A stretch of DNA of 64,000 nt from Hydrogenophaga sp. (GTDB lineage Bacteria; Pseudomonadota; Gammaproteobacteria; Burkholderiales; Burkholderiaceae_C): NCBI RefSeq assembly GCF_019635465.1, contig NZ_JAHBZK010000011.1:62001-126000 (forward strand), read 5' to 3'. Below are positions 20,718 through 45,224 of this stretch, piece after piece (positions within the stretch are counted from its first letter, which is position 1; each line of letters begins with the position of its first letter). The notes beneath the pieces are model-generated. The model was not told where the DNA came from. It ran no database searches and saw only the letters and a list, made by a program, of their open reading frames with translations. The position numbers and the translations under genes are program-made.

Positions 20718-23700
20718 CTATTGCCAGGCCGCCGCAATCACCGGTGCGAGCGCCGATTGCTGATCCAGCGTGAGGGTGGTCTGCCCCATGGGCGGTGGCG
20801 CAAACGATGCCATGGCCTGGACCAGGGCATCGACCTGACTGGCCAGCATCAAATGCCCGTCGTCCGTCTGGAACTGCTCCACTTGGTAACGGCTGCCGCC
20901 ATACCAGTTGCCAATGGTGGCCTTGTCGCCCGTTCCGATGACGCTCACCTCGAGGTTGTTTGATTCGCGGCGGAACCAGACCTGGTCCATCGCGACACCC
21001 TGCAGCAAGCGCAACACATCGATATTGCCGGCCAGCTCGTCGTCTTCCACGATGGCATCGGACCCGTCGCCTCGACCCAGCAGATAGGTGTCATCGCCCT
21101 GTCCGCCGACCAAGGTGTCTTGGCCACCCTTCCCGTGCAGCGTGTCGTTACCTGCGTAGCCCTGCAACACATTCGCACCCGAGTTGCCCACCAGGGTGTT
21201 GTCCTCGTCGTTGCCGAACCCCTGCAGGTCCGCCGAGCCCGTGAGCCGCAACACCTCGACCGACTCGCCGAGTGTCCAGTCAATGGAAGAGCGCACGGTG
21301 TCCACGCCCTCATCGAACCACTCGATCACCTCGTCGAATGCTTGCGCAACCACATAGGTGTCATCGCCCAACCCGCCGTACATGGTGTCGTCACCCGCCC
21401 CACCATTGAGCCAGTCCGCCCCATCGCCACCTTCCAGCAGATCGCGGCCACCTGCCCCGTAGAGGCTGTCGTCGCCCGCGCCGCCGATCAGGGTGTCGCG
21501 TCCAGCCAAGCCATACAGTCGGTCATTGCCAGCGCTGCCTTGCAACCAATCCGCAGCGGCGGTGCCCTGGAGCTGGAGATCGGCAACGATCGACAGCACG
21601 AATTCGTCCGTCGCTTGCTCGCCATCACTGTCGGTGGCCTGCACGCGGATCGTCAGGTCGCTTGCATCGATCGGCGCCATCCCGCTAAATCGCATGCCTT
21701 CTTCGCTGAACGTCAGCCACGCCGGCAATGGCGATCCGTCGGCCAGCGTGGCACCCATGCTCAGCGTGTCGCCGATGTCCGGATCCATGAAGGCATCCGG
21801 TGCCAGAGAGAACGCTATGGCGTCCCCGGCGCGAACGGACTGATCCACGATGGGGTTGGCCACTTGCGGTGCGTCGTTCACATCGCCCACACGGATCACG
21901 AACGTGGTGTCCACCTCAACCCCGAAGGCATCTGCCGCGCGCAGCCGGACCAGGTAGCTCTCCCGGTGCGTCGCCCCGGGTGTGCCGGAAAAGGTGCGGT
22001 TCTGCGCGTCGAACGTCAGCCAATCGGGCCAGCCATCGCCATCGATGACCTCGGCCGAGAGCGTCAAGGCGTCGCCGTCGGTGTCCGCAAAGGTGCCCGT
22101 CGGCACGGTGAACTGGAACGCCTCACCCTGCATGGCCCATTGCTCGGCCACGGGCTCGGCCACCGTGGGTGCATGGTTCAGCATGCCCAATACCTGCGGA
22201 AGGTAGATTTCTTCACCCGACGCAAAGCGCAGATAGGACACACCCGCCAGCGATTGGTCGTTGTGAAAGATGTCAATGTTGTCGTACGCGTAGGTGACGT
22301 AGGAGACCTGCTCCCCGGTCGTCACATCGGTGAATTGATGCACCTGCGGCGTCCGTATCGACAACCAGATCTTGCCGGTGTAGGTCAGGCCGTAGCCGAC
22401 ATCGTCGGCCTCAATGCCCGCCGCAAACGCGATGGCGTTGTTCAAAAACGCCCCGGGCTTGGCAGCTCCGCCAGCGTAGATGCGGTCATAGGTGCCATCG
22501 CCACGCGCATAGTGAATGACATTGCCTTCCACGTTGAGCGTGATGCTGTCGTTGCCCTTGCCAGGGTAGATCTCCATCGGCGTGTCCACGGTGATCCAGT
22601 CGTTGCCCGACCCGCCAAAGGCATATTCGCCTTCGCTGAACCATTGCGAGTAGCCACCCGTGACGTATTGCTGCAGAAATTCGCCCATGTCTTGCGACTG
22701 CCCGCCGATGACGATGCGGTTGATGCTGCCCGCAAAGGCGTTCTTGATGACCAGATCGCCTTGCGCGTTGGAGATGCGCAGGTTGATTGAATCGTGCGTC
22801 ACCTGGAATGTGCCCGGCTGCAGCCCATTGATCTGCAGCGTGTCGAATCCGCTGGCGTCGTCGATGGTGACCGCCTGGCCACCCACCGCGGGGCGCCAAT
22901 CCACGATGTAGGTGTCGTCGCCCGAGCCGCCGTCAAGGTAGTCGGCACCGTCGGCGGACACCAGTGTGTCGGCCCCATCCTCGCCGAACAAGAAGTCGGC
23001 ACCCGCTTGCCCATCCAGCCAATCGTTGCCCGCTTCGCCCCAGAGCTGGTCGGCATCGTCGCCGCCGAGCACCGTATCGTTGCCCTCCCCGCCCAGCACC
23101 GTGTCATTGCCCGAGCCACCCAGCAAGGTGTCGTTGCCACCGTCGCCGTGAATGCGGTCATGGCCAGCGCCGCCATCAATGAAGTCGTTGCCCTCCTGTG
23201 CTGCATCGACCATTTGGCTCGTGTGCACCTGCAGCGTCGCCGACAGGGAGAAGTCCACCGGCCGCAGCAGGTAGGCCGCATGGGGGTTGGCGTCGCCGTA
23301 CAACTCGTCGTTTCCGCTGCCGCCAAACAACAGGTCGTTGCCGCCCAAGCCGCAGACCTGGTCGCTGTCGGCCCCGCCGTCCAGCACGTCGTTGCCGATG
23401 CCGCCCCAGATGGTGTCATCGCCCGCCCCGCCCGAAACGGTGTCGGCCGCCGTTGCGTCATCCGTCCACGCCTGGTACGCGCCCCCACTGAGGCGCAGGT
23501 CGTCCACCAGCAGGTTGCTCGACACCCAGTGGCCCTGGGCATCTCGGGCGATGGCCCAGGCTGGCACGCCATTGACTTCGCTGCCGATCCAGGGGGTGGC
23601 CACGATGCCGTTCTGCGCCAGCGTGCCGTAGTCGCCCGTCAGCCGCGCGGACAGCGCCGACATGATGAAGTCGTTGCCGCTGCCGCCGTCGATGCGGTCG

Positions 23701-25853
23701 CTGCCCGCGCCGCCCAGAATCACGTCGTCGCCGCTGCCGCCCGCCAGGGTGTCGTCCAGCGCGTAGCCCACCACCACGTCGTTACCGCCGCGCCCGTCGT
23801 AGTCGATGCGCTGGCGATCGGCGTAGACGCCCGCGGCGCTTTGCAGGCTGCCGGCGCGGTAGACGTCGTCCCGATCGGGCACTGGTGAGCCATGGATCCA
23901 GCTCCCGTCGGAGGCAACCATGCCTTCGGCGTACAAGGGCGCGCCGCTGTCCAGCACCTGGTCGCCGTGAAGGCGAAACACGTCGTCGGGCAGCGTCTGG
24001 GGCGGCGTGAGGGGTGCAGTGGGCAAGCGAATGCCCAGCGCGCCGTCAACCCAGCCCTGGATCACGACGGCAGCCGCGGGCGCGCCTGGGGCCTGCGCTC
24101 CCGAGTCACTGCCGCGCTGCACGATGCGCAGGCCTTCGTCCACAAGCGAGAACACCAGTCGGCCATCGGCGCTGGCCCACACACCATCGCCACCCTCGCC
24201 GCCATCACCAACCCTCACGATCACCGTCTGTGCATCCAGAACCTGCCCATCGAACACCAGCCGCCCCAGCCCGTCGGCATCAAGCACCGTGTCCATGCCC
24301 GAGGCCAGGTCGAAGCGGTATTCGTCTGTGCCCTCGCCGCCGAGCAAGGTGTCGTCGCCCGCGCCGCCGATGAGGGTGTCGGCGCCGTCTCCGCCCAGCA
24401 AAACATCTCCCAAAGCGCCCCCGTCGAGCCAGTCGTTGCCACCGCCTCCGATCAAGTGATCCCAGCCGCCACCGCCACGCAGGAAATCACTGCCCGAACC
24501 GCCCAGCGCCACGTCGTTGGCCAACTGGGATTCCGCCCAGTTCATCGAACCCGCCCCGCGCTGAATGTGCCATGCGCCGCCCTGATTGAGGACTGCGGTT
24601 TGGAATGGATCACCTCCCACGGCAGTGCTCGATACGGCGTCTCGCAGGGGGCTCAAACCTTTGAGCGAATCGCTGGCAATGTCTGCCAGATCGAAATGAA
24701 GTGCGCCGGCTTGCATACCGAACAAACCAACCTCGTTGTCGATGGGCGCGTGGTAGTGAAAGTCCATGGCCAGCGCGACAAGCGCCTTGCGGACCTCGGG
24801 CTCGGCGCTGGCACCTTCGCCTTCTTGTAGCAATGACAGGTCTTCGGTGAACCGGCTCAATGCACTGGCGTTGCCGAAGCCCTGTTGGATCTGGTCATTG
24901 ACCAGCGAGGTAATCAGGTCGCGCGTGGAGCTGTTGGGGTCAGCGGCGTACAAGTCGGTATCCAGCAGTGCCGGCAGCAGCTCTGGCATGGATTTGACCA
25001 GTTGACGCAACTGATCATTCAGCAGGAACGCAAGGTGCAGGTTCATGCTGTGCAGACCCAGTGCCAGTTCGACCGGCATGGCTTCATCACTGAGGTCAAT
25101 GCCGACGTCCTGCCCCACGACAGTGGGCAGGAACACCCGCCCGTACTGCAAGAACTCGCCCTCGTTGTAGATGTTGGTGACGCCCGCCTCACGGCGTTCG
25201 AATTCGCCCTGCAAAAAGAGCTCGCCATCCACCAGCTCGCGCAGACGGTTGACTTCTTCGAGCACCGCCAGGCTGGCACTGCCCGCCGACTGCGTGGTGG
25301 CGGCTGCGATGGCCGCGGCAATGGACAAGGGATTGGTCGCGTTGACCTCGAAGGGCGCCGCCGCAAAGGTGGTAGCGGGTTTGTCGTACCAGACGGCCAT
25401 GTTGGCGGCGAGCCCTCCGCCCAGGCTGTGACCGGTGAAGCTGATCTTGTCCGGGTCGTATCCGTTGTCCACCGCCCAGTCCTTCACGGCAAGGTAATAC
25501 GCCGACGCATTGAGTTGCTGCCCGATGCCCAGCGCCAGCCTGCCAGCAAATGCCAAACCGACGTCTGCTGCCAAATCGGCCACCGTATTCCACGCCCGGT
25601 CACTGAACTCAGCCAGGAAATCGGTGCCCTTGTAGGCCACCACTATCTCGCCGGTGGCTTCGTTCAAATACGCCCCGCCGGTAAAGCTGAAGGGGTTAAT
25701 GGCATTGAGGTTGTCGCCGGCAGGGAAACCAAGGTCAGAAATATCGCGCCATCCAGTTGGCAACTGAAGAATATTGATACTTGAATCACCTCCACCGCCA
25801 CGTTGATCATTGTAAACATATGCCGCCAATGCAGCGCGTTCAGCTATATTCAT
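20718..25853 (-). CDS. Giant RTX protein with N-terminal lipase domain
   Basis: A 1711-residue acidic, calcium-binding protein, probably exported by a type I system through its uncleaved C-terminus. Residues 1-330 form a lipase-like alpha/beta domain with nucleophile S143 in GHSLG and a candidate histidine in GLHSMNLHL. Blocks of GGxGxDxLxGG nonapeptides lie at about 450-510, 685-730, 800-855, 888-980, 1430-1510 and 1560-1605. Two Ig/cadherin-like repeats occupy about 1227-1430. The tail from about 1605 resembles the haemolysin-type calcium-binding-related domain. ATG is preceded by AGGGAGT. No exporter genes adjoin it. Likely a secreted lipase, adhesin or effector; the target is unknown. Confidence 0.88.
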   Translation of the reverse strand: MNIAERAALAAYVYNDQRGGGGDSSINILQLPTGWRDISDLGFPAGDNLNAINPFSFTGGAYLNEATGEIVVAYKGTDFLAEFSDRAWNTVADLAADVGLAFAGRLALGIGQQLNASAYYLAVKDWAVDNGYDPDKISFTGHSLGGGLAANMAVWYDKPATTFAAAPFEVNATNPLSIAAAIAAATTQSAGSASLAVLEEVNRLRELVDGELFLQGEFERREAGVTNIYNEGEFLQYGRVFLPTVVGQDVGIDLSDEAMPVELALGLHSMNLHLAFLLNDQLRQLVKSMPELLPALLDTDLYAADPNSSTRDLITSLVNDQIQQGFGNASALSRFTEDLSLLQEGEGASAEPEVRKALVALAMDFHYHAPIDNEVGLFGMQAGALHFDLADIASDSLKGLSPLRDAVSSTAVGGDPFQTAVLNQGGAWHIQRGAGSMNWAESQLANDVALGGSGSDFLRGGGGWDHLIGGGGNDWLDGGALGDVLLGGDGADTLIGGAGDDTLLGGEGTDEYRFDLASGMDTVLDADGLGRLVFDGQVLDAQTVIVRVGDGGEGGDGVWASADGRLVFSLVDEGLRIVQRGSDSGAQAPGAPAAAVVIQGWVDGALGIRLPTAPLTPPQTLPDDVFRLHGDQVLDSGAPLYAEGMVASDGSWIHGSPVPDRDDVYRAGSLQSAAGVYADRQRIDYDGRGGNDVVVGYALDDTLAGGSGDDVILGGAGSDRIDGGSGNDFIMSALSARLTGDYGTLAQNGIVATPWIGSEVNGVPAWAIARDAQGHWVSSNLLVDDLRLSGGAYQAWTDDATAADTVSGGAGDDTIWGGIGNDVLDGGADSDQVCGLGGNDLLFGGSGNDELYGDANPHAAYLLRPVDFSLSATLQVHTSQMVDAAQEGNDFIDGGAGHDRIHGDGGNDTLLGGSGNDTVLGGEGNDTVLGGDDADQLWGEAGNDWLDGQAGADFLFGEDGADTLVSADGADYLDGGSGDDTYIVDWRPAVGGQAVTIDDASGFDTLQINGLQPGTFQVTHDSINLRISNAQGDLVIKNAFAGSINRIVIGGQSQDMGEFLQQYVTGGYSQWFSEGEYAFGGSGNDWITVDTPMEIYPGKGNDSITLNVEGNVIHYARGDGTYDRIYAGGAAKPGAFLNNAIAFAAGIEADDVGYGLTYTGKIWLSIRTPQVHQFTDVTTGEQVSYVTYAYDNIDIFHNDQSLAGVSYLRFASGEEIYLPQVLGMLNHAPTVAEPVAEQWAMQGEAFQFTVPTGTFADTDGDALTLSAEVIDGDGWPDWLTFDAQNRTFSGTPGATHRESYLVRLRAADAFGVEVDTTFVIRVGDVNDAPQVANPIVDQSVRAGDAIAFSLAPDAFMDPDIGDTLSMGATLADGSPLPAWLTFSEEGMRFSGMAPIDASDLTIRVQATDSDGEQATDEFVLSIVADLQLQGTAAADWLQGSAGNDRLYGLAGRDTLIGGAGDDSLYGAGGRDLLEGGDGADWLNGGAGDDTMYGGLGDDTYVVAQAFDEVIEWFDEGVDTVRSSIDWTLGESVEVLRLTGSADLQGFGNDEDNTLVGNSGANVLQGYAGNDTLHGKGGQDTLVGGQGDDTYLLGRGDGSDAIVEDDELAGNIDVLRLLQGVAMDQVWFRRESNNLEVSVIGTGDKATIGNWYGGSRYQVEQFQTDDGHLMLASQVDALVQAMASFAPPPMGQTTLTLDQQSALAPVIAAAWQ

Positions 25854-32361: not shown

Positions 32362-33219
32362 TCAGCTCAGGAAGCGCTGCACCAGCTCCAGCTGATCGGG
32401 CACGTTGAGCGCCGGCGCGTGGCCACAGCCGGCGATGGTCACCACCAGCGCGCGCGGGCCACGGTCGCGCATGGCCTCGGCGGTGTCGGCCAGCAGCAGG
32501 TCCGAGTCGGCGCCGCGCAGGCACAGCACCGGCATGTCGATGGCGTCGAAGACTGGCCACAAGTCGTAGTCGTGCGGGTGGTGGGTGAACTGCATCACCA
32601 TCGCCGGGTCGTAGTGCGGCGTGACGCGGCCGTCGGGCAAGCGGCGCAGCGAGCTCTCGGTGAGCTGGCACCATTGCGCATCGGGCAGGTAGCCATAGGG
32701 CTGGTACACGGTGCGAAAGTACCGCTCCAGCTCGCCCACGGTGTCAAAGGCCGCCGGGTTGCCCGCGTAGCTGCGAATGCGCTGCACCGCGGGCTCGGCC
32801 AGCTGCGGGCCGATGTCGTTGAGCACCAGGCGCTGGATGCGGCCCTTGAGCGGCCCGGCCGCGCACACCATGCCGATGGCACCCCCCATCGACGTGCCCA
32901 CCCAGTGGAATTGGGTCAACCCCAGCTGGTCCACGAGCGAAGTCGCCAACCGGGCGTAGAAGTCGAGGCAGTACTCGGCCTCGGGCTGTGGGCTCCATTG
33001 CGACAGGCCCCGGCCGATGGTGTCGGGGCAGATCACGCGCCAGCCCTGTGCGCACAGGTGCGCGGCCAGCGGGTCCATGTCGCGCCCTGTGCGCGCCAGG
33101 CCGTGCCAGGCCACCACCACGTCGCCGCTGGGCTGCGCGGGCACCCAATCCATGAAATGAATCTCGCGGCCTTCGCAGGCCAGGTAGCGCGATTGCACGC
33201 TGAACGAAGCGGTGGTCAT
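32362..33219 (-). CDS. Alpha/beta hydrolase co-transcribed with an ABC transporter
   Basis: A 285-residue cytoplasmic hydrolase. Oxyanion strand VVVAWHGLARTG, nucleophile serine in WVGTSMGGAIG, aspartate region LCLRGADSDLL and histidine in IAGCGHAPALN form a complete triad. It is the last gene of the livGFHM-like operon; its ATG overlaps the livM stop by ATGA. That coupling implies the imported compound is an ester, amide or lactone that this enzyme cleaves (inference). Confidence 0.85.
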   Translation of the reverse strand: MTTASFSVQSRYLACEGREIHFMDWVPAQPSGDVVVAWHGLARTGRDMDPLAAHLCAQGWRVICPDTIGRGLSQWSPQPEAEYCLDFYARLATSLVDQLGLTQFHWVGTSMGGAIGMVCAAGPLKGRIQRLVLNDIGPQLAEPAVQRIRSYAGNPAAFDTVGELERYFRTVYQPYGYLPDAQWCQLTESSLRRLPDGRVTPHYDPAMVMQFTHHPHDYDLWPVFDAIDMPVLCLRGADSDLLLADTAEAMRDRGPRALVVTIAGCGHAPALNVPDQLELVQRFLS

Positions 33220-34319
33220 GACGGCTCCTTGTGTGCGAGGCGCGCCACCGCCGCGCGCTCGCGCAGCCGCCCGACGATGCCGGTGGGGAAGTAATAGACC
33301 GAGAGCACGAACAGCAGGCCCAGCCACAGCAGCCAGCGATCGGGCGTGAGGATGGCAGGCAGCAGCGGAACGCCGTCGACCAGGCCACCGAGCGCTCGCA
33401 GCAGGTCCTGCAGGTAGCTCTGCGCCACCAGGAACAGCACACTGCCGATGACCGCGCCATAGAGCGTGCCCATGCCGCCGATGACCACGATCAGCAGCAC
33501 GTCGAGCATGATCTCGAACGACAGCGAGGTGTCCGGCCCGTTGTAGCGCAGCCAGAGCGCGAGCAGGCAGCCCGCCAGCGTGGCGAACGAAGCCGAGATC
33601 ACGTTGGACAGCGTGCGGTACACCACGGTGCGGTAACCCAGCGCCTCGGCGCGGAAGTCGTTTTCGCGAATGGCCTGCAGCACCCGCCCGAACGGTGAGT
33701 TCACGATGCGCAGCATCACCAGGAACATGGCCACCACGGTCACGAACAGCAGGTAGTAGGTGATGAAGCGCCCGTTGAGCGCCACCGCGCCGAAGGGGCC
33801 TTCGAAGTCGTCCTCCATCAACGCGAAGCCGGGCGTCAGCAGCTCGGGCAGGCGGAAGGTGAGACCGTCTTCGCCACCGGTGATGTCCGACAGCTGCGAC
33901 GCCAGCGTGAGAAAGGCCGAGGCCACCGCCAGCGTGATCATCGCGAAGAAGATCGCCTTGACCCGCAGTGAGAACAGACCGATCAGCAGCGCCAGCAGCA
34001 GTGAGAGCAGCACGGCACCGACCGCCCCCACCGCCAGCGCCCACCAGGTCGAGCCCAGCGCCGTGACCGAGATGGCAATGCCGTACGCACCAATGCCGAA
34101 GAACATGGTGTGCGCAAAGCTCACGATGCCGGTGTAGCCCAGCAGCAGATCGAAGCTGACCACCAGCGCGATGAAGATCAGCACCTTGGCCGCCACATTG
34201 ATGGCCTTGACGCTGGGAAACAGGAACGGCGCGAACGCCAGGCCGAGCACGACCAGCACCAGCAGCACCGACAGCACACGGCTGCGCGGCAGGTCGTTGG
34301 AGAGCAAGCGAGAGGACAC
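33216..34319 (-). CDS. livM: Branched-chain amino acid-type ABC permease LivM
   Basis: Inner-membrane permease of 367 residues with about nine hydrophobic helices; the LivM/H signature appears around GLALLLRYNGPD-like positions (here ENDFRAEALGYRTVVYR) and VVIGGMGTLYGAVIGS. Of two nearby in-frame GTG codons the second (MSSRLLSNDL) is preferred because AAGGAG stands 8 nt upstream of it, while it overlaps the first. It follows livH by 13 nt and overlaps the hydrolase gene. Forms the membrane channel with LivH. Confidence 0.88.
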   Translation of the reverse strand: MSSRLLSNDLPRSRVLSVLLVLVVLGLAFAPFLFPSVKAINVAAKVLIFIALVVSFDLLLGYTGIVSFAHTMFFGIGAYGIAISVTALGSTWWALAVGAVGAVLLSLLLALLIGLFSLRVKAIFFAMITLAVASAFLTLASQLSDITGGEDGLTFRLPELLTPGFALMEDDFEGPFGAVALNGRFITYYLLFVTVVAMFLVMLRIVNSPFGRVLQAIRENDFRAEALGYRTVVYRTLSNVISASFATLAGCLLALWLRYNGPDTSLSFEIMLDVLLIVVIGGMGTLYGAVIGSVLFLVAQSYLQDLLRALGGLVDGVPLLPAILTPDRWLLWLGLLFVLSVYYFPTGIVGRLRERAAVARLAHKEPS

Positions 34320-34332
34320 GGTTGCCACTCCT

Positions 34333-35319
34333 TCAGCGGTTCGTCACGGGGTAGACCCCCTGCGGACGCCACAAAAGGATGGCGACCATGAGCGCGATGT
34401 TCGAGAACAGCGCCACCTTGGGCGCCAGAAAGCCGGTGTAGTTGGCCATCAGCCCCACCAGCAAGGCGCCCACCAGGGCACCCAGCGTGGAGCCCAGGCC
34501 GCCGATGATGATGACGATGAAGATCAGCACGTTGACCTGCGCGCCCATCTGCGGCAGCACGGTCTGCTGGTAAAGGCCCCACATCACACCGCCGAGGCCG
34601 GCCAGCGCACTGCCGGCCACGAACACGCCCACGAACAGCCGGTGGATGCGGTAGCCCAGCGACTCGACCATTTCGCGGTCCTGCACACCGGCGCGGATCA
34701 GCAGGCCGACCTTGGTGCGGTTGAGCGTCCAGACCATGATGGCGAACACCACCAGGCCGACCACCACCGCCAGCAGGCGGTACTTCTCGATGGAGGCGTC
34801 GCCGATGATGAAGCTGCCACGCAGCGTCTCGGGCAGTGGCAGCGCCAGCTGACCCGGGCCCCACACCACCTTGATCAGCTCTTCGCCGATGATCATCCCG
34901 CCCATGGTGATGAGGATCTGCTTGAGGTGCTGGCCATAGACCGGCCGCACGATCATGCGTTCAAACACCCAGCCCAGCGCGCCCGCCACCACCATCGCCG
35001 CCAGCATGGCCGGCACCAGCGCGGCCAGGTTGAGCCAGAAGCTGTCGGCGATGGCGTAGGCGTTGAGCCCGCCGAACACACTGACCGCCACGAAGGCACC
35101 GAGGGCGATGAACACGCCGTGGCCGAAGTTGAGCACGTCCATCAGCCCGAACACCAGCGTGAGGCCCGAAGCGATGACGAACACGATCAACCCCATGGCC
35201 AGGCCCGCCACGGTGAGCGTGAGCCAGGTGGACGGGCTGCCCACCGCAGGCAAGGCCAGCGCGGCCAGCAGCGGCACCAGCGCGACGGGGCGCCAGTCGA
35301 AGTCTTTCAAGAAATTCAT
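34333..35319 (-). CDS. livH: Branched-chain amino acid-type ABC permease LivH
   Basis: Inner-membrane permease of 328 residues with around eight helices and the conserved LTLVFGLMDVLNFGHG and IIIGGLGSTLGALVG loops of this family. Start MNFLKDFDW overlaps the livF stop by ATGA. Partner of LivM. The length is slightly above E. coli LivH because of an N-terminal extension before the first helix. Confidence 0.89.
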   Translation of the reverse strand: MNFLKDFDWRPVALVPLLAALALPAVGSPSTWLTLTVAGLAMGLIVFVIASGLTLVFGLMDVLNFGHGVFIALGAFVAVSVFGGLNAYAIADSFWLNLAALVPAMLAAMVVAGALGWVFERMIVRPVYGQHLKQILITMGGMIIGEELIKVVWGPGQLALPLPETLRGSFIIGDASIEKYRLLAVVVGLVVFAIMVWTLNRTKVGLLIRAGVQDREMVESLGYRIHRLFVGVFVAGSALAGLGGVMWGLYQQTVLPQMGAQVNVLIFIVIIIGGLGSTLGALVGALLVGLMANYTGFLAPKVALFSNIALMVAILLWRPQGVYPVTNR

Positions 35320-36056
35320 TGATGCGCTCCCAGCGAGAGCCCCAGCAAACGCGCTTGCAGCGCCGTGTCCTCGGCCAGTTCGGCCATGGCGCCGCTGTGC
35401 ACCACGCGGCCGTCGTCCATCACGGCCACCTGATCGCCCAGCTGGCGTGCGAAGTTGAAGTTCTGCTCGACCAGCAGGATCGTGGTCTGCGCGGCCTTGA
35501 GCTCCTTGAATGCCGCGATCATGTTCTGGATGATGGCCGGCGCCAGGCCCTTGCTGGGCTCGTCGATCAGCAGCAGGCGGCGCGGCTCGACGATGGCGCG
35601 TGAGACCGCGAGCATCTGCTTCTGTCCGCCCGAGAGCTTGCCCGCCGGGTGCAACCAGAACTTCTTCATGGCCGGGAACATGTCGAAGATCCACTCCAGG
35701 CGCTTCGTGTCCACGTCGTCGAGCGTGCGCGCGCCACGCGCGGCCAGCAGCATGTTCTCCTTGACGCTCAGGTCCGAGAAGATGCCCATGTTCTCGGGCA
35801 CGTAGGCCACACCGCTTTGCGCGATGTCGGGCGTGGCGCGCCCGCCGATGTCCTGCCCCGCCAGCGTGATCCGCCCCTGGCTGGGCTTCCACAAGCCCAT
35901 GATGGTGCGCAGCGTGGTGGTCTTGCCGGCGCCGTTGCGGCCCAGCAGCATGGTGAGCCCGTTCTCGGGCACCACCAGGTCCACGCCGTGCAGGATGTGG
36001 TACGCGCCGATGTGGGTGTGCACGCCCTCGAGCGTGAGCAAGGCGGTGGTGCTCAT
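35316..36056 (-). CDS. livF: Branched-chain amino acid-type ABC ATPase LivF
   Basis: ATPase of 246 residues: Walker A GRNGAGKTT, Q-loop YVPENMGIFSDLSV, signature LSGGQKQML, Walker B LLLIDEPSKGLAP, switch histidine region replaced by LLVEQN, as normal for LivF. It overlaps both neighbours (livG upstream, livH downstream) by ATGA, so the operon is tightly coupled. Powers uptake of the solute delivered by the binding protein at 36957-38153. Confidence 0.92.
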   Translation of the reverse strand: MSTTALLTLEGVHTHIGAYHILHGVDLVVPENGLTMLLGRNGAGKTTTLRTIMGLWKPSQGRITLAGQDIGGRATPDIAQSGVAYVPENMGIFSDLSVKENMLLAARGARTLDDVDTKRLEWIFDMFPAMKKFWLHPAGKLSGGQKQMLAVSRAIVEPRRLLLIDEPSKGLAPAIIQNMIAAFKELKAAQTTILLVEQNFNFARQLGDQVAVMDDGRVVHSGAMAELAEDTALQARLLGLSLGAHQ

Positions 36057-36817
36057 GCCACGGCCTCTTCTTCCTCGGGGTTCACGCCCAGGTAAGCCTG
36101 TTGCACCACCGGCGATGCGATCACCGTCTCTGGCTCGCCATCGGCCACCAGGTGTCCGTTGTGCAGCACGATGATGCGGTCCGAGAGCTCGCGCACCACG
36201 TCCATCTTGTGCTCGACCAGCAGGATGATCTTGGAGCGGTCTTCCTTGAGGCGGCGGATGAGGTTCAGGATCACCGGCACCTCGTCCACGCTCATGCCCG
36301 CCGTGGGTTCGTCAAACATGTAGACCTTGGGGTCGAGCGCCATGAGGATGGCCACCTCCAGCTTGCGCTGGTCGCCGTGCGGCAGACTGGCCGCGCGCGC
36401 CTCGCGCTTGTCCAGCAGCGACACCGTCTCCAGGATGTGCAGCGCGCGATCGAGCAGGTCGCGCCGATCACTCCAGATCCGGAAGAAGTCCAGCCCGGCC
36501 CCCGCCCTCGCCTGCACCGCCAGCCGCACGTTCTCGACCACGCTCAGCTGCGGGAACAGGTTGGTGAGCTGGAAGGCCCGCCCCAGGCCAGCGCGCGTGC
36601 GCAGCGGCGCGCTCAGGCGGCTGATGTCCTGACCGTCGAGCGACACGCTGCCCGCCGTGGCCTTGATCTGCCCCGAGATCAGGTTGAAGTAGGTCGTCTT
36701 GCCCGCGCCATTGGGGCCGACGATGGCCGTCAGCGTGCCCGGCGCAAACGCGCAGGAGACAGCGTTGACCGCCACGTGCCCACCGAAGCGGACCGTGAGT
36801 TCTGAGGTTTCAAGCAT
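36053..36817 (-). CDS. livG: Branched-chain amino acid-type ABC ATPase LivG
   Basis: ATPase of 254 residues: Walker A GPNGAGKTT, Q-loop RAFQLTNLFPQLSV, Walker B VYMFDEPTAGMS and LLVEHKMDVV with the switch histidine. The signature reads LPHGDQRKLE instead of the common LSYGQQR form, a variant seen in some Liv-like systems. Start MLETSEL is chosen over an upstream frame that runs through the structured intergenic repeat. Confidence 0.9.
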   Translation of the reverse strand: MLETSELTVRFGGHVAVNAVSCAFAPGTLTAIVGPNGAGKTTYFNLISGQIKATAGSVSLDGQDISRLSAPLRTRAGLGRAFQLTNLFPQLSVVENVRLAVQARAGAGLDFFRIWSDRRDLLDRALHILETVSLLDKREARAASLPHGDQRKLEVAILMALDPKVYMFDEPTAGMSVDEVPVILNLIRRLKEDRSKIILLVEHKMDVVRELSDRIIVLHNGHLVADGEPETVIASPVVQQAYLGVNPEEEEAVA

Positions 36818-36956: not shown

Positions 36957-38153
36957 TTACCGTTTATTCCGAATCGGAATGGCCATGTCTTCCGGCTTGA
37001 TCTCACGCACCAGCTCCGGCACGCCCCAGGCGAACGCCGGGTCGGCCTTGATCCGGAAGTGGTACATGCTCTGCATGGCCTGGTGGTCTTCCTTGCGGAA
37101 GGTCATGGTGCCCTTGGGCGTGTCGAAGCTCATGCCTTCCATGGTCTGGATGAGCTTGTTGGTGTTGGTGTCGCCGTTGGTCTTCTTGAGCGCAGTCACC
37201 ACGGCCATGGCCGATGCGAAACCACCCGCGGTGAAGAAGTCAGGCGGTGCCTTGTACTCGCGGTAGTGCTCCGAGACCATGTGCTCGTTGATCGGGTTCT
37301 TGGGGATGCCGAAGTAGTAGTACAGCGCACCTTCCATGCCCGGGAACTGCTTGTAGGCCACCATGGCCGGCAGGATGTTGCCGCCGGTGGCGAGCTTGAT
37401 GCCATAGCGCTTGTCCAGCTCCATCTCGGCGATCTTGGCAAACGGCGTCGGCGCGCCCGACCACACCACCGAGATGAACTTGTTGCCCGGCTGGTCCTTG
37501 AGCTTGTCCACCAGGCGCAGCAGGCCAGCGGTGAAGTCGGTGGTGCCCACGGGCAGGTATTCCTCGTGCACCACCTTGGCCTTCTTGGTGAAGTCCTTGG
37601 CGGCCTTGACGGCGTCGCGGCCGAAGGCGTTGTCGTTGGCCAGCACGCCGATCACGTTGCCCGGCTGGTCCATGGCCACGGCGTTGGCGGCGGCGTCCTG
37701 GCTGCTGTTGCGGCCGGTGCGGAAGATGTACTTGTTCCACTTGTCGCCAGTGATCGAATCGGCCACGGCGGGCTCGACCAGCAGGATCTTGCGGTACTCC
37801 TCGGCCACCGGCAGCATGGCCAGCGCCACGGGCGAAGCGGTGGGGCCGATGGCGAGGTCGACCTTGTCGTCGGCATAGGCCGCGGCCAGCAGGCTCTTGC
37901 CGATGTCGGGCTTGCCCTGGTCGTCCTTCTCGATCACCACGATCTTCTTGCCGCCGACCATCATGGTGCCGCCGGTGGCGTACTTCAGGCCCATCATCAA
38001 ACCCACCTGGGTCTGCTTGGCATAGGCCTCGAGCGGGCCGGTCATGCTGTGGATGTGGGCGATGCGGATTTCGCCTTTGTTGGCTTGGGCAAAGCCCAGG
38101 CTGGCCGTGCAGGCCAGGGCAATCACCGCCAGGCGGCGGGTGGCATTGAACAT
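36957..38153 (-). CDS. Branched-chain amino acid-type ABC solute-binding protein
   Basis: Periplasmic receptor of 398 residues, first gene of the Liv-like operon. Signal peptide about residues 1-23 (LAVIALACTASLGFAQA), then IRIAHIHSMTGPLEAYAKQTQVGLMMGLKYATGG and a type-I periplasmic-binding fold with AIGPTASPVALAMLPVAEEYRKILLVEPAVADSIT. The ligand cannot be deduced; related receptors bind amino acids, amides, urea or aromatic acids. A sigma-54 promoter and three activator palindromes lie upstream. Hairpins follow the stop. Confidence 0.9.
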   Translation of the reverse strand: MFNATRRLAVIALACTASLGFAQANKGEIRIAHIHSMTGPLEAYAKQTQVGLMMGLKYATGGTMMVGGKKIVVIEKDDQGKPDIGKSLLAAAYADDKVDLAIGPTASPVALAMLPVAEEYRKILLVEPAVADSITGDKWNKYIFRTGRNSSQDAAANAVAMDQPGNVIGVLANDNAFGRDAVKAAKDFTKKAKVVHEEYLPVGTTDFTAGLLRLVDKLKDQPGNKFISVVWSGAPTPFAKIAEMELDKRYGIKLATGGNILPAMVAYKQFPGMEGALYYYFGIPKNPINEHMVSEHYREYKAPPDFFTAGGFASAMAVVTALKKTNGDTNTNKLIQTMEGMSFDTPKGTMTFRKEDHQAMQSMYHFRIKADPAFAWGVPELVREIKPEDMAIPIRNKR

Positions 38154-38205: not shown

Positions 38206-38222
38206 CGCAGACAACGTGCCAG
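38206..38222 (-). promoter_or_regulatory. Sigma-54 (-24/-12) promoter of the Liv-like operon
   Basis: Read on the minus strand, CTGGCACGTTGTCTGCG matches the RpoN consensus: GG of the -24 element and GC of the -12 element are exactly 10 nt apart. Predicted transcription start is near 38195, about 40 nt before the binding-protein ATG. A gene for a sigma-54-dependent activator lies just upstream, which strengthens the call. Confidence 0.8.
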
Positions 38223-38271
38223 ACTACAAGTGCTTGATTTATCGTGACTTTTTCAGCAGTCACTGACTACC

Positions 38272-38306
38272 TGTCTGAATTTCAGGCAGCTATCTATGTC
38301 TGAAAT

Positions 38307-38332
<26 letters not shown>
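38272..38332. promoter_or_regulatory. Three 17-bp palindromic upstream activator sites
   Basis: Three related dyads: TGTCTGAATTTCAGGCA (38272-38288), TGTCTGAAATTCAGACA (38297-38313, perfect) and TGTCTGCGTTTCAGACA (38316-38332). Consensus TGTCTGAA-N-TTCAGACA. Centres are 25 and 19 bp apart, and lie about 60-115 bp upstream of the sigma-54 promoter. The third site overlaps the last codons of the activator gene. They are the natural binding sites for the HTH of that activator. Confidence 0.8.
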
Positions 38333-39782
<1,450 letters not shown>

Positions 39783-39833: not shown

Positions 39834-41342
39834 TCAGGCCGTGGCTTCGGTCGCCGCGCGCCGGCGCGCCAGCAACCGGGGCACGATCAGGATCAGCGCC
39901 ACCACGATCAGCAGTGTCAGCGACATCGGCCGGTCGATGAAGACGCGCCAGCTGCCCTCGCCGATTGCCATGGCGTTGCGCATCTGCGCCTCGGCCAGCG
40001 GGCCGAGGATCAGGCCCACGATCACCGGCGCGATCGGGAAGTCGAAGCGGCGCATGACCACACCCAGCAGGCCCAGGCCGGCCATGAGGAACAGATCGAA
40101 TGCGCTCTGGCGCATGCCGTACACGCCCACCGTGGCAAAAATCAGGATGCCGGCGTAGAGCTGCGGACGCGGCACGCGCAGCAGCTTCACCCACAAGCCC
40201 ACCAGCGGCAGGTTGAGCACCAGCAGCATGACGTTGCCGATGTAGAGCGACGCAATCAACGCCCACACCAGCGAGGACGAGGTCTGAAACAGCTGCGGGC
40301 CGGCGTTGATGCCGTAGTTCTGCAAGGCAGACAGCAGGATGGCCGCCGTCACCGAGGTGGGAATGCCCAGCGTGAGCAGCGGCACCAGCGTGGCCGTCAC
40401 CGCCGCGTTGTTGGCGGCCTCGGGTCCGGCCACGCCTTCGATGGCGCCGGTACTGCCGAAGCTGTCGCGGTCCTCGCCCTTGGCCAGCTTGCGCTCGGTG
40501 GCGTAGCTAAGGAAGGTCGGGATCTCGGAGCCACCCGCGGGAATGGTGCCGAACGGAAAGCCCAGCGCCGTGCCGCGCAGCCAGGCCGGCCAGGAGCGCT
40601 TCCACTCGTCACGCGTCATGTGCACCTTGGACAGGTGGTTCACCTCGAGCTTGACCCGACCTTCGTAGAGCGTGTTGTAGAAAGCCTCGGTCACGGCGAA
40701 CAGACCGACCGCGACCAGCACCACCTCGATGCCGTCCATGAACTCCAGAATGCCGGCGGTGTAGCGCACCTGGGCGGTGATCTGGTCAATGCCTACCAGG
40801 CCCATCGACAGTCCAAGGATCAGCGCCGTCATGCCGCGCAGCGTGCTCTGCCCCAGCACCGCGCTGACCGTGGTGAAGGCCACCAGCATCAGGCAGAAAT
40901 ACTCGGGCGGCCCGAGCTTGACCGCGTACTCCGCCAGCACCGGCGCAAAGAAGGTGACCAGCACCGTGGCCACCGTGCCCGCCACGAACGAGCCGATGGC
41001 CGAGGTGGCCAGCGCCGCCCCCGCGCGGCCGTTCTTGGCCATGCGAAAACCTTCAAGCGCGGTGACCATGGTCCCGGTCTCACCCGGGGTGTTGAGCAGG
41101 ATTGAGGTTGTGGAGCCACCGTACATGGCGCCGTAGTAGATGCCGGCGAAAAAGATCATCGACGCGGTGGGCTCCACCTGGCCGGTGATGGGCAGCAGCA
41201 TGGCCACGGTGACCGCCGGCCCCAGCCCCGGCAACACACCGATGGCCGTACCCAGCGCGCAGCCGGCCAGGGCCCACAACAGGTTGATCGGCGAGGCAGC
41301 GGTGGCAAAGCCGCCCAGCAACTGGGTGAGGATGTCGGACAT
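39834..41342 (-). CDS. tctA: Tripartite tricarboxylate transporter large permease
   Basis: Inner-membrane subunit of 502 residues with about twelve helices. Family motifs [25 protein letters not shown] and [21 protein letters not shown] are present. It couples uptake of citrate or other carboxylates to an ion gradient together with TctB and the receptor TctC. The ATG is immediately preceded by a 15-copy heptamer array and no ribosome-binding site can be seen. Third gene of tctCBA. Confidence 0.93.
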
Positions 41343-41447
41343 GGGCGTTGGGCGTTGGGCGTTGGGCGTTGGGCGTTGGGCGTTGGGCGTTGGGCGTTGG
41401 GCGTTGGGCGTTGGGCGTTGGGCGTTGGGCGTTGGGCGTTGGGCGTT
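41343..41447 (-). repeat. Perfect 15-copy heptanucleotide tandem repeat (AACGCCC) abutting tctA
   Basis: Fifteen uninterrupted copies of GGGCGTT (AACGCCC in the tctA sense) run over 105 bp and end at the base before the tctA ATG, so the leader lacks any Shine-Dalgarno purine tract. Upstream, at 41468-41496, inverted-sense units of the same type (GCGTTGAGGGTTGAGCGTTGAG in the gene sense, split over two blocks) could pair with the array in mRNA. A perfect array of this length is prone to copy-number change. Confidence 0.95.
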
Positions 41448-41498
41448 GGGCAGGGCGAGCGTGGCCGCTCAACGCTCAACCCTCAACGCACAACGCCG

Positions 41499-42011
41499 CT
41501 ATATCCAGCCGGTCCCGGTGAGCCCGGGCAGGTTCACGGCCAGCAGCTTGGTGAACAGCCAGTAGACCGGCGCGGCAATCAGCATGCCAGTGACGGCGTC
41601 ACGCACGGTGGTGGCCACGCCGCCGCCGGCCCGGCCTTCGCTCATACGCAGGCCGCGCACGGCCAGCACAAAGCACAGGGCGCAGCTGAGCACGAAGCCG
41701 ATGGTGGTGATGAGTGCGGCGTTGGCCAGTACGCCCGCGCCCACCCAGGCCATGCCGTGCCAATCCCCGGTGGCCGCGCCCGAAGGCGTCTCCACATGGC
41801 GCCAGCCGCCGTTGAAGGCCTGCCACAACAGCAGCAGGCCGCACACACCCATGGCGGCGCTCAGCAGCCAGGGCAGGAAGTCGGGGCCGACGCCCGCATA
41901 GCCGGCCTCGTGCGGAATATCGCGGGCCCCCCAGGCCAGCACACCCGCCAGGGCGAGTGCGCCAAGCCCGATGAGGACTTCGCCAGGCTTGGTGGGTGCT
42001 CGATCGCTCAT
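41499..42011 (-). CDS. tctB: Tripartite tricarboxylate transporter small permease
   Basis: Inner-membrane subunit of 170 residues with four hydrophobic segments (GEVLIGLGALALAGVLAWGA, FLPWLLSAAMGVCGLLLLW, ALITTIGFVLSCALCFVLAV, MLIAAPVYWLFTKLLAV), the TctB layout. Start MSDRAPTKPG is preferred over an upstream frame. It follows tctC by 13 nt and is separated from tctA by the repeat-filled 156-bp gap. Confidence 0.88.
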   Translation of the reverse strand: MSDRAPTKPGEVLIGLGALALAGVLAWGARDIPHEAGYAGVGPDFLPWLLSAAMGVCGLLLLWQAFNGGWRHVETPSGAATGDWHGMAWVGAGVLANAALITTIGFVLSCALCFVLAVRGLRMSEGRAGGGVATTVRDAVTGMLIAAPVYWLFTKLLAVNLPGLTGTGWI

Positions 42012-42024
42012 GCCCGGGCCGTGC

Positions 42025-42984
42025 TCAGACCATACCCGCGCGGACCATGGTGGCGCGCAGGGACGAGAAGTCGCGATCAACGAATTCCTCGAACGCCTTG
42101 CCCGACAGGAAGGCCGAAGTCCAGTTGTTCTTCTTGAGTGCCGCAGCCCACGAGGCGGTCTTGGTGGCCTTGGTCACCATGTCCACCAGCGCCGCGCGCT
42201 CGGCTGCGCTGATGCCCGCTGCGCCGTACACGCCGCGCCAGTTGCCGATTTCCACGTCGATGCCCTGCTCCTTGAGCGTGGGCACGTCGATGCCGTCGAG
42301 GCGCTTGCCCGAGGTGACCGCAATCGCGCGCATCTTGCCGCTCTCGATATAGGGCTGGAACTCGCTGTAGCCGCTGCCGCCCACGGTGACGTTGCCGCCC
42401 AGGATGGCCGCCACCGCTTCACCGCCCCCACGGAAGGGCACGTAGTTGATGCGCGCGGCGTCCGCGCCCACGGCCTGCGCGATCTGCGCCGCGGCGATGT
42501 GCTCGGTGGAGCCACGCGAGCCGCCCCCCCACTTGACGCTGCCGGGGTCCTTCTTGAGCTGGGCAATCACATCGGCCATGGTCTTCATCGGCGACTCGGC
42601 CGGCAGCACGAAGACGTTGTATTCGGAGGTCAGGCGCGCGATCGGCGTGACCTGCGTGACCGAGACCGGCGGCTTGCCGGTGATGATGCCGCCCAGCATC
42701 ACGGCGCCCATCACCATCAGCGCGTTCGGGTCGCCCTTGCTGGCGTTGTAGAACTGGGCCAGGCCGATGGCGCCGGCCGCGCCACCTTTGTTCTCGAAGG
42801 TCACCGAGGAGGCCACGCCCGACTCGCGCAGCGCTTCGCCCAGGGCACGGCCGGTGGTGTCCCAGCCGCCGCCGGGGTTGGCCGGAATCATCATCTTCAC
42901 GTTGGCCGATGCCCAGGCCATGCGCGGCAGCGCGCCGGCGGCCGCCAGTGCGGCCATGGACTTGAGGAAGGTGTCGCGACGCAT
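42025..42984 (-). CDS. tctC: Tripartite tricarboxylate transporter receptor (Bug family)
   Basis: Periplasmic solute receptor of 319 residues. The Tat- or Sec-like signal peptide MRRDTFLKSMAALAAAGALPRMAWA is followed by VKMMIPANPGGGWDTTGRALG, a typical tricarboxylate-binding variant of the Bug fold. AAGGAG precedes the ATG. First gene of tctCBA and divergent from the TctDE two-component genes, which normally activate it. Ligand probably citrate or another tricarboxylate. Confidence 0.9.
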   Translation of the reverse strand: MRRDTFLKSMAALAAAGALPRMAWASANVKMMIPANPGGGWDTTGRALGEALRESGVASSVTFENKGGAAGAIGLAQFYNASKGDPNALMVMGAVMLGGIITGKPPVSVTQVTPIARLTSEYNVFVLPAESPMKTMADVIAQLKKDPGSVKWGGGSRGSTEHIAAAQIAQAVGADAARINYVPFRGGGEAVAAILGGNVTVGGSGYSEFQPYIESGKMRAIAVTSGKRLDGIDVPTLKEQGIDVEIGNWRGVYGAAGISAAERAALVDMVTKATKTASWAAALKKNNWTSAFLSGKAFEEFVDRDFSSLRATMVRAGMV

Positions 42985-43027
42985 GCTTGTCTCCTTGGAG
43001 TGGGTGGTGTCAACGGCCGCGATCTTC

Positions 43028-43042
43028 GACAGCGGCGCTGTC
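43028..43042. promoter_or_regulatory. Palindrome between tctC and tctD, possible TctD site
   Basis: GACAGC-GGC-GCTGTC is a perfect 15-bp dyad in the 141-bp divergent gap. Farther out, GGGTGGTG and CACCACCC form a second, widely spaced inverted pair around it. Position makes it the best candidate for response-regulator binding, though OmpR-type proteins more often use direct repeats. Confidence 0.4.
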
Positions 43043-43125
43043 AGTTGGCTGTCCACCACCCTGGGGCAAACCCTGAGTTCCGACCTGCGCTTCACATCCC
43101 GCGCCGCCCATAATCGCGCTCCGCC

Positions 43126-43803
43126 ATGAAGCTGATGCTGGTTGAAGACAACGCCACCATGCGCGAGACGCTGGCGCGCTCGCTCGCCCGGCGCGGCATC
43201 GAGGTGGTGTGCTGCGACGACGGTGCACGCGCCCTGACGGTGTGGCGCGAGACGCGCCCCGACGCGGTGCTGCTCGATCTGTCGCTGCCCGGGCGCGACG
43301 GCCTGGACGTGCTGTCGGCGGCGCGCAATGACGGCCTGCGCACGCCGGTGATCATCCTCACCGCGCGCGGCACGGTGGGCGACCGCATCCTGGGCCTGAA
43401 CACCGGCGCCGACGATTACCTGCCCAAACCCTTCGACCTCGACGAACTCGAAGCCCGCGTGCGCGCGCTGGTGCGCCGCGCCAGCGGCGTGGACGCCACG
43501 CCCGCAGCGGCCAGCTGGTGCGGCCTCACCGTCGACCGCGACAGCGGCGCTGTGTACCACGATGGCCAGGCTCTGGAGCTGCCGCCGCGCGAGCTGGCCC
43601 TGCTGCGCGCACTGCTCGCGCGCCCCGGGCAGGCCATGGCGAAGGAGCGCTTGTTCGAGCTGGTGTTCCCCGGTGAAACCGACGTGCAGCCAGAGGCGAT
43701 CGAGGTCGTGGCCTACCGCTTGCGCAAGAAGATCGGCCACACCGGCGCGCAGCTGGTGACGCTGCGCGGCCTGGGCTACCTGCTCAAGGCGGGCACACCG
43801 TGA
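43126..43803 (+). CDS. tctD: Response regulator of the tricarboxylate transport system
   Basis: OmpR-family regulator of 225 residues: receiver domain with phospho-acceptor D51 in VLLDLSLPG, acidic pocket E7/D8, threonine in ILTARG and lysine in LPKPFD; winged-helix output domain from about residue 125. Its stop overlaps the GTG start of the kinase gene. Divergent from tctCBA, which it most likely activates when substrate is present. Confidence 0.9.
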   Translation: MKLMLVEDNATMRETLARSLARRGIEVVCCDDGARALTVWRETRPDAVLLDLSLPGRDGLDVLSAARNDGLRTPVIILTARGTVGDRILGLNTGADDYLPKPFDLDELEARVRALVRRASGVDATPAAASWCGLTVDRDSGAVYHDGQALELPPRELALLRALLARPGQAMAKERLFELVFPGETDVQPEAIEVVAYRLRKKIGHTGAQLVTLRGLGYLLKAGTP

Positions 43804-45224
43804 CCACGCGAACCCTCTCGCTGCGGCGCACCTTGCTGCTGGGCATCCTGGTGCCGGTGTTTGCCTACGTCGTCTTCAACACCACCATCCTCTACCGACA
43901 AGCCCTGGTGGCTGCGGACACAGCCTACGACCGCACCCTGCTGGCCACCGCCAAGTCGCTCGGCGAACAGTTGCAGGTCAGCGATGGGCCCGGCGGGCCG
44001 CAACTGCAGTCCACGCTCATCTACTCCGCACTCGAGGCCTTCGAGGCCGACAACCGCAGCCGGTTGTTCTATCGGGTGCTCGGTTTCGACGGCGAGATGG
44101 TCTCGGGCTTTCCGGACCTGCCATCGCCGCGGCGCGATGTGCCGGTGAAAGGCATCTACGCCGCGCTGGTGAACTTCTACGACGACCAGTACCGCAACCA
44201 GCCGGTGCGCATGGCCGTGCTGCTGCAGCCGGTGGCCGGCGTGCGCGGCCAGGGCATGGCCACCATCCAGGTGGCCGAGACACTTGAGCTGCGCCAGACG
44301 CTGGCGCGCCAGATCCTCACCGACACGCTGTGGCGGCAGGCCGCCATGCTCAGCGTGATTGCATTCGTGGTCATCGTGGTCGTGCAATGGGCCACGCGCC
44401 CGGTGCGCCAGATCAGCCGCGACATCACCGCGCGGCGCGAAGACGACCTCTCGCCCCTGCCCACCAGCGATGCGCCGCGCGAGCTGTTGCCCCTGCTGGA
44501 CGCCACCAACCAGCACATGCAGCGCCTGTCGCAGCTGCTCGATCACCAGAAGCGCTTCGTGCGCGACACCTCGCACCAGCTGCGGACGCCATTGGCGGTG
44601 CTCAAGACGCAGCTGCAGTCGGCACGCCGTGGCGACGTCGAACCACGGCAAGCGCTGGATGAAATCGCGCACACGGTGGACCGCGCCACCGAGCTGGCCA
44701 ACCAGATGCTGGCGCTGGCCAAGGTCGAGCAGATGCGACAGGAGCGCGACGCGCCGCTGAGCAACTGGTCGGACGCGGTGCGCACGGTGGCGCTCGACCT
44801 GGCCCCGTTGGTGGCCGAACGCAACCTGGACTTCAGCCTTGCCCTGCCCGAGAGCACACCCGTGCGTGCCCACGAATGGGCCTTGCGCGAGGTGGCGCGC
44901 AACCTGCTGCACAACGCCATCAAACACACCCCGGCGGGCGGCGCGCTGCAGGTGCAACTGGGCCACATGGGCCACGAGGCCGTGCTGCAGATCAGCGACA
45001 GCGGCCCGGGCATTTCAGACGGTTTGCGCGAGCGGCTGTTCCAGCCCTTTGCCACCGACCACCGTGCGGGCCCCAGCCAGTCCGGCTCAGGCCTCGGTCT
45101 GGCCATCTGCCAGGGCATCGTGCAGTCGCTGGGCGGTCACATCACGCTGCACAATCGCATCCTGGCCGGTGAGGTCCGGGGCCTGGACGCCCGGGTGCAC
45201 CTGCCCATGCAACGCAACGAATGA
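43800..45224 (+). CDS. tctE: Sensor histidine kinase of the tricarboxylate transport system
   Basis: Membrane kinase of 474 residues. Two helices (about 11-31 and 180-196) bound a periplasmic sensor domain, followed by a short linker, the dimerisation/phosphoacceptor helix with H259 in DTSHQLRTPL, and an ATPase domain with N-box HNAIKHTP, G1 ISDSGPGIS and G2 SGSGLGLAI. GTG start overlaps tctD. Its stop overlaps the next gene by ATGA. Confidence 0.9.
   Translation: MTTRTLSLRRTLLLGILVPVFAYVVFNTTILYRQALVAADTAYDRTLLATAKSLGEQLQVSDGPGGPQLQSTLIYSALEAFEADNRSRLFYRVLGFDGEMVSGFPDLPSPRRDVPVKGIYAALVNFYDDQYRNQPVRMAVLLQPVAGVRGQGMATIQVAETLELRQTLARQILTDTLWRQAAMLSVIAFVVIVVVQWATRPVRQISRDITARREDDLSPLPTSDAPRELLPLLDATNQHMQRLSQLLDHQKRFVRDTSHQLRTPLAVLKTQLQSARRGDVEPRQALDEIAHTVDRATELANQMLALAKVEQMRQERDAPLSNWSDAVRTVALDLAPLVAERNLDFSLALPESTPVRAHEWALREVARNLLHNAIKHTPAGGALQVQLGHMGHEAVLQISDSGPGISDGLRERLFQPFATDHRAGPSQSGSGLGLAICQGIVQSLGGHITLHNRILAGEVRGLDARVHLPMQRNE

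Follow-up and report, generated by a model that had tools for sequence, protein, structure and literature searches.

Genes and control elements at the locus

The window, the whole 64-kb stretch of DNA analysed here, lies on contig C3 of a Hydrogenophaga draft genome of 3.9 Mb that is 88% complete. In minus-strand order, a tricarboxylate-type transporter set, tctCBA (43017–39834), is followed by the gene of a sigma-54 activator, three dyads, an IHF consensus, a sigma-54 promoter and then, across 38153–32362, the genes for a periplasmic binding protein, LivG, LivF, LivH, LivM and an alpha/beta hydrolase. The predicted features are as follows.

38307..39782, minus strand: activator gene (491 aa), PAS – sigma-54 AAA+ (GAYTGA loop) – Fis-type HTH, with Pfam matches to PF00158, PF25601, PF02954 and PAS_4
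38316..38332, minus strand: distal enhancer dyad, TGTCTGAAACGCAGACA in minus-strand letters, wholly within the activator's last codons
38297..38313, minus strand: middle enhancer dyad, TGTCTGAATTTCAGACA, perfect, overlapping the activator stop codon
38272..38288, minus strand: proximal enhancer dyad, TGCCTGAAATTCAGACA, from a motif match
38227..38239, minus strand: IHF consensus, AATCAAGCACTTG, a perfect match 18 bp before the -24 box
38206..38221, minus strand: sigma-54 (-24/-12) promoter, TGGCACGTTGTCTGCG, with a GG-N10-GC core
36957..38153, minus strand: periplasmic binding protein, Peripla_BP_6, 64% identical to RPA4397 (PDB 3n0x)
36053..36817, minus strand: ABC ATPase of LivG type, from profile matches
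35316..36056, minus strand: ABC ATPase of LivF type, from profile matches; its start overlaps the preceding stop by 4 bases
34333..35319, minus strand: ABC permease of LivH type, from profile matches
33216..34328, minus strand: ABC permease of LivM type, GTG start, from profile matches
32362..33219, minus strand: alpha/beta hydrolase with a G-T-S-M-G box, from profile matches

The preliminary description of this DNA, made from the letters alone, had proposed an adjacent PAS-AAA-HTH activator, and Pfam profiles (AAA+ domain, PF00158, E 1.9e-66; Fis-type HTH, PF02954, E 4.1e-13) and conserved motifs bear this out: in an alignment of 11 homologs, one row of which is a truncated copy, GAYTGA (a variant of the GAFTGA loop) and GETGTGKE are invariant and GGTLFLDE is invariant or nearly so. 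For the start of the gene we take the ATG at 39782: the open frame extends further, to 39818, but 39782 is the position from which orthologs align. The genome also contains rpoN (TIGR02395, 378.4 bits, above the cut-off). Matches to rpoN lie at two places, G000:C17:33905-35032 and G000:C14:1-1182, one of which abuts a contig end and falls short of the cut-off, so there are either two rpoN genes or an assembly artefact.

By Pfam profiles, the Liv/HAAT-type importer set is complete, with a Peripla_BP_6 binding protein, two ATPases and two BPD_transp_2 permeases, and the closest named relatives of the binding protein come from Hydrogenophaga and then from other Comamonadaceae. Four-base overlaps at the LivG/LivF, LivF/LivH and LivM/hydrolase junctions suggest one transcript. 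A terminator scan of the minus strand found no site in 38150–36800 and one weak site within LivM; its totals were not above those for shuffles (7 vs 6.2).

Directly upstream of the activator, on the same strand, is tctCBA, with a divergent TctDE-like two-component system beyond (39834–45224 for both). Since only 51 bp separate tctA from the activator gene, the activator may be co-transcribed with tctCBA in the Hydrogenophaga strain studied. Could the activator then serve the tricarboxylate-type transporter, with the nearness of the Liv operon being incidental? Of 25 same-genus loci, 15 have TctA ahead of the activator, and contig ends truncate some of the remaining ten; however, TctA was not seen upstream in seven loci with more than 4 kb visible in each (L038, L049, L050, L051, L052, L054 and L056), where the Liv operon stays and dyads lie before the binding-protein gene (weak in L054). 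We thus reject tctCBA as the activator's target and regard this reading as very improbable. Two repeat tracts in the window deserve mention in their own right: a TGGGCGT heptamer repeated in tandem 15.7 times with 100% matches between tctA and tctB (41342–41451), which is a candidate slippage-prone tract, and two 27-bp tandem repeats (23061–23138 and 24330–24401), whose reverse strand, judged by eye, may encode glycine/aspartate-rich calcium-binding repeats.

The three 17-bp dyads reported at first sight are confirmed. With up to 3 mismatches allowed, the window contains three (no mismatch at 38297–38313, one at 38272–38288 and two at 38316–38332), whereas 0.07 are expected and none of 100 dinucleotide shuffles reached three; in the whole 3.9-Mb draft genome, the three at the operon are the only dyads with up to 2 mismatches, and four more appear at 3 mismatches. 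The preliminary description had placed only the third site in the activator's coding end. That placement is right for the distal dyad, but the activator stop codon (38309–38307) falls within the middle dyad, which brings the number of dyads overlapping the coding end to two.

The promoter, too, is where it had been described (38221–38206), with GG at 38220–38219 and GC at 38208–38207 of the minus strand and an exact GG-N10-GC spacing. Taken alone, it is a 2-mismatch site at chance level (46 such sites in the window vs 49 expected); in other words, it is convincing because of its position and conservation and not because of its motif score alone. Between the dyads and the promoter lies the IHF consensus, which was absent from the earlier sequence-only account: AATCAAGCACTTG fits perfectly to WATCAANNNNTTR, the sequence that we take to be the IHF consensus.

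Conservation and geometry of the control region

Activator orthologs with at least 76% identity are found in 25 of 36 same-genus genomes, the studied one included. In the 23 same-genus loci whose activator region stays on one contig, three dyads are present in 21 and two dyads in the other two (up to 5 mismatches), and 22 have the promoter (up to 3 mismatches). The dyad pattern itself (up to 2 mismatches) occurs in 48 of 60 same-genus genomes and the reversed pattern in 5 of 60.

For a wider view, 79 distinct activator-to-binding-protein gaps were collected across the family, after 6 of 85 had been dropped as identical or as falling outside 0–800 bp. The sigma-54 site (up to 2 mismatches) is conserved in 74 of the 79 gaps vs 2.7% of shuffles. 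With up to 3 mismatches allowed, one or more dyads are present in 56 gaps (0.18% of shuffles) and two or more in 45 (0.00% of shuffles); 23 gaps have no dyad at this threshold. An IHF consensus with up to 1 mismatch appears anywhere in 46 gaps (12% of shuffles), and it clusters 17–19 bp ahead of the -24 box, where 41 of the 74 promoter-bearing loci have it and 33 do not.

These 74 loci also served for the analysis of spacing and for building the dyad matrix, whose consensus is YGTCTGAAWTTCAGACR. The three best matrix sites per locus were taken, however weak, and no spacing was imposed beyond at least 15 bp between sites and a position 60–140 bp before the promoter. Dyads 1 and 2 are 18–20 bp apart in 73 of 74 loci (19 bp in the window), and dyad 3 lies 65–69 bp from the promoter in 64 of 74 (67 bp in the window). 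Between dyads 2 and 3, the spacing is 23–26 bp in 37 loci (25 bp in the window) and 33–35 bp in 35, with none at 27–32 bp. As the two classes are about one helical turn apart, helix faces are kept. The claimed order and spacing of the module are thus upheld, the spacing being near-fixed in the 74 family loci. The one variable spacer of this enhancer, which shifts by about a whole helical turn, is a clean experiment of nature in how sigma-54 activation depends on geometry. In the Rubrivivax-like loci L128, L132, L133, L137 and L167, the activator is apart from the operon and the dyads are weaker or differently spaced.

Could the inverted repeats simply be the transcription terminator of the activator gene? 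They span its stop codon and can fold. However, the terminator scan finds none at the dyads, the site is present threefold with conserved spacing, and a copy precedes a depolymerase gene far from any activator gene (see below). Additionally, in two loci (L017 and L020) the activator stop comes 19 bp earlier and the mutual spacing of the dyads is unchanged; what is under selection would thus seem to be the DNA and not the protein tail. The terminator scan and these stop-codon shifts lead us to reject the terminator reading, to which we assign a negligible probability.

What ties this particular activator to the module? Among loci with no adjacent activator and at least 1.6 kb of upstream sequence (n = 7; L127, L130 and L154, which are cut by contig ends, are excluded), activator and module agree in 7 of 7. 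L110, L138, L169, L101 and L141 have no promoter and no dyad above a weak matrix score ahead of the binding-protein gene, and their genomes are without the activator at E 1e-90. L155 and L115 have promoter and dyads without an adjacent activator, and the activator is found elsewhere in the genome; L155 has one strong dyad upstream at an unusual spacing, and the dyads of L115 (the same stretch as L220) are weak. These are draft genomes, which makes single absences soft; the agreement over the seven loci is nonetheless complete. Additionally, the binding-protein gene is tandemly duplicated in L126, L134, L153 and L163, and in 4/4 of these loci every copy carries a promoter and two or three dyads. 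At L144:6285-7247, the activator match stops early (~321 aa) with dyads and promoter present, possibly a broken activator or an assembly error.

The pairing of dyads and activator rests on inference, and the dyads might instead bind another regulator, such as a repressor, with the activator acting elsewhere. Set against this alternative are the joint loss of module and activator and a position and phasing that fit an enhancer, and we give it very little weight. The preliminary description had put a Liv-like ABC/hydrolase operon under this sigma-54 module, an assignment that profiles and conservation in relatives support at the level of sequence, and we hold it highly probable that the operon is controlled by a conserved sigma-54 regulatory module made up of the dyads, the IHF site, the promoter and the adjacent activator.

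Cargo of the transporter and linkage to PHB enzymes

PHB, poly(3-hydroxybutyrate), is a natural polyester and a commercial bioplastic, and its biodegradation is known mainly from secreted depolymerases. To our knowledge, how PHB fragments are taken up and how such a system is switched on are much less clear than the depolymerases themselves.

The Liv label leaves the substrate of the present importer unsettled, because the binding protein fails the NCBIfam cut-off for branched-chain amino acid binding proteins (NF011933, 65.4 bits vs 477), which rules out a branched-chain amino acid transporter proper (LivK/LivJ), and because a search of open-licence papers found no ligand for RPA4397, the nearest solved relative (PDB 3nnd is identical in sequence to 3n0x over the aligned part). 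A ligand screen of R. palustris does not name RPA4397 in its main text, and according to the same study the Liv-type binding proteins of this species often bind fatty and dicarboxylic acids (PMC3223731). A role in fatty or dicarboxylic acid uptake modelled on R. palustris RPA3723–3725 was first weighed, since 3n0x is from the same species, and was dropped because 3n0x is RPA4397. In the titles and opening lines of abstracts of open-licence papers, none of the matches listed concerned this operon, the dyad or ABC-type import of 3-hydroxybutyrate (3HB) oligomers.

The relatives are more informative. In some of them, a type 2 extracellular scl-PHA depolymerase is encoded between the binding protein and LivG (NF050059, 378–401 bits against a cut-off of 280 in the three tested; the one in L054 is related to PDB 2d80), and in some, a 3HB-oligomer hydrolase (PF10605, >1000 bits in the three tested) is encoded either between the genes for LivM and the hydrolase or at the operon end. 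One or both of these enzymes are in the operon in 26 of 103 loci and 77 show neither, a count in which some loci are cut by contig ends and some genomes are counted twice.

The linkage is also visible across 200 genomes of the family, 101 of which have the activator at E 1e-150. Of the 43 genomes with both activator and 3HB-oligomer hydrolase, 26 have the hydrolase gene on the activator's strand and less than 15 kb downstream of it; for the depolymerase, the same holds in 25 of 31. Fisher tests of co-occurrence with the activator, uncorrected for kinship, give p = 5e-5 for the oligomer hydrolase and 0.0035 for the depolymerase. The PF10605 count drops the four weakest genomes (G133, G145, G197 and G256) of 63, and the depolymerase count keeps, out of 103 genomes with some match, the 44 that passed the cut-off.

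The module is also found before a depolymerase gene that stands alone. In genome G205, a depolymerase gene (L206:2765-1287) lies ~52 kb from the activator, by eye between a CaiB-type gene and typA, and has its own promoter, TGGCACGGAGCGTGCA, with three dyads that lie 110, 91 and 67 bp ahead of this promoter. The score of this module is 39.7, whereas the best among 354 promoter-like sites in mononucleotide shuffles is -23.7. A weaker mirror-image match on the opposite strand, pointing at the typA end, is probably an effect of dyad symmetry. A chance origin of the dyads and module is ruled out by the shuffles, the genome scan, the conservation and spacing in the family and this stand-alone copy. 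Among depolymerase or oligomer-hydrolase genes away from the operon (20 stretches), the module precedes 1 of 13; for the 3HB-oligomer hydrolases away from the operon, it precedes none of the nine examined. In L208, L209, L210 and L212, the oligomer-hydrolase genes off the operon adjoin other Liv-type ATPases that are ~38–43% identical to those of the operon, a hint that other Liv-type transporters, too, have a link to 3HB oligomers.

In the genome studied, at 88% completeness, no type 2 depolymerase and no 3HB-oligomer hydrolase were found by the same searches that find both in other family genomes; it has three type 1 depolymerase-like matches, the best at 133 vs a cut-off of 150. With neither PHB enzyme found, this species may be a scavenger.

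Might the same sigma-54 switch serve a different cargo, such as a medium-chain acid (fatty, hydroxy- or dicarboxylic) or an ester of one, the depolymerases having joined secondarily in some lineages? The many loci that show no PHB enzyme in the operon, the studied genome among them, would be expected under this alternative, as would the acids often bound by R. palustris Liv-type binding proteins (PMC3223731); what weighs against it is that two unrelated PHB-specific enzyme families are found within the operon in several genera, at positions that differ, and that one off-operon depolymerase bears the module. We consider such other cargo unlikely, if still to be reckoned with. The reading that we favour, at a probability of roughly 0.7, is that sigma-54, the activator and IHF together switch on the uptake and cleavage of 3HB oligomers from extracellular PHB. 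The 'nitrogen or carbon source' first proposed for the operon was vague; the context in relatives favours carbon, in the form of PHB breakdown products.

The wider activator family is not tied to PHB, as distant homologs lie beside TRAP-transporter genes. Homologs with ~50% identity adjoin a uxuA/TRAP-transporter cluster on two annotated Azospirillum plasmids (L230 and L231), and TRAP-type genes were seen by eye beside distant activators in some other genomes, which suggests that the wider family is paired with different solute transporters. In L060, a 50%-identical activator homolog is, by eye, ~3 kb from an apparent 3HB-oligomer hydrolase.

A proposed switch and its known counterparts

The mechanism that we infer, in its activator binding, its signal, its transported compound and the substrate and activity of its hydrolase, starts from a basal supply of activator, which would be made together with its own upstream genes. 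The activator would bind the three 17-bp dyads, ~85–130 bp upstream of the expected start, and IHF would bend the DNA between dyads and promoter, bringing the activator to the promoter. The PAS domain would sense a PHB-derived signal, presumably 3HB or an oligomer, and free the AAA+ ring, which would then contact the sigma-54 polymerase at the -24/-12 promoter and open the promoter. The resulting transcript would encode the periplasmic binding protein, the Liv-type importer and the hydrolase. The binding protein would capture 3HB oligomers, the Liv pump would import them, and the hydrolase would cleave them to 3HB inside the cell. The alpha/beta hydrolase has no obvious signal peptide when judged by eye, and we propose that it is a cytoplasmic 3HB-oligomer esterase, both location and role being predictions.

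A broader proposal, which we would put at about even odds, is that the locus encodes an import route devoted to 3HB oligomers, in which a Liv-type ABC importer and a cytoplasmic oligomer esterase form their own sigma-54 regulon, with a widespread core, a patchy depolymerase and scavenger species. The importer core occurs widely across the family, whereas some species have the secreted depolymerase and others do not. If the proposal is true, species such as this one would be scavengers of oligomers freed by their neighbours. The type of switch is a familiar one; what is new is the predicted role in PHB-oligomer import, and the phase-locked enhancer adds to the interest of the module. The locus offers a concrete candidate uptake system together with its regulator, and a motif with which Comamonadaceae can be searched for PHB-degradation regulons.

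By description rather than by sequence, the nearest known analogue in function is HbcR (PA2005) of Pseudomonas, which one report presents as a sigma-54 activator of (R)-3HB catabolism with a single N-terminal PAS domain at 17–123 (PMC8694187) and another describes as activated by (R)-3HB (PMC10482368). On these descriptions, the two activators would share the PAS-AAA-HTH layout, the dependence on sigma-54 and a 3HB-related function; however, HbcR governs 3HB catabolism, whereas the Hydrogenophaga activator adjoins a Liv-type importer operon. The best NCBIfam match of the activator is PrdR (NF041552), which covers residues 34–490, from PAS to HTH, but scores 354.7 bits against a cut-off of 795, and hence the activator is not PrdR. 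Genes for extracellular PHB degradation lie inside the orthologous operon of some relatives, whereas none were found in the Hydrogenophaga genome studied. A last counterpart is NifA, whose enhancer is TGT-N10-ACA. The Hydrogenophaga dyads resemble it in having TGT...ACA upstream of a -24/-12 promoter with IHF, and they differ from it in their N11 spacing, where NifA has N10, and in their longer conserved core.
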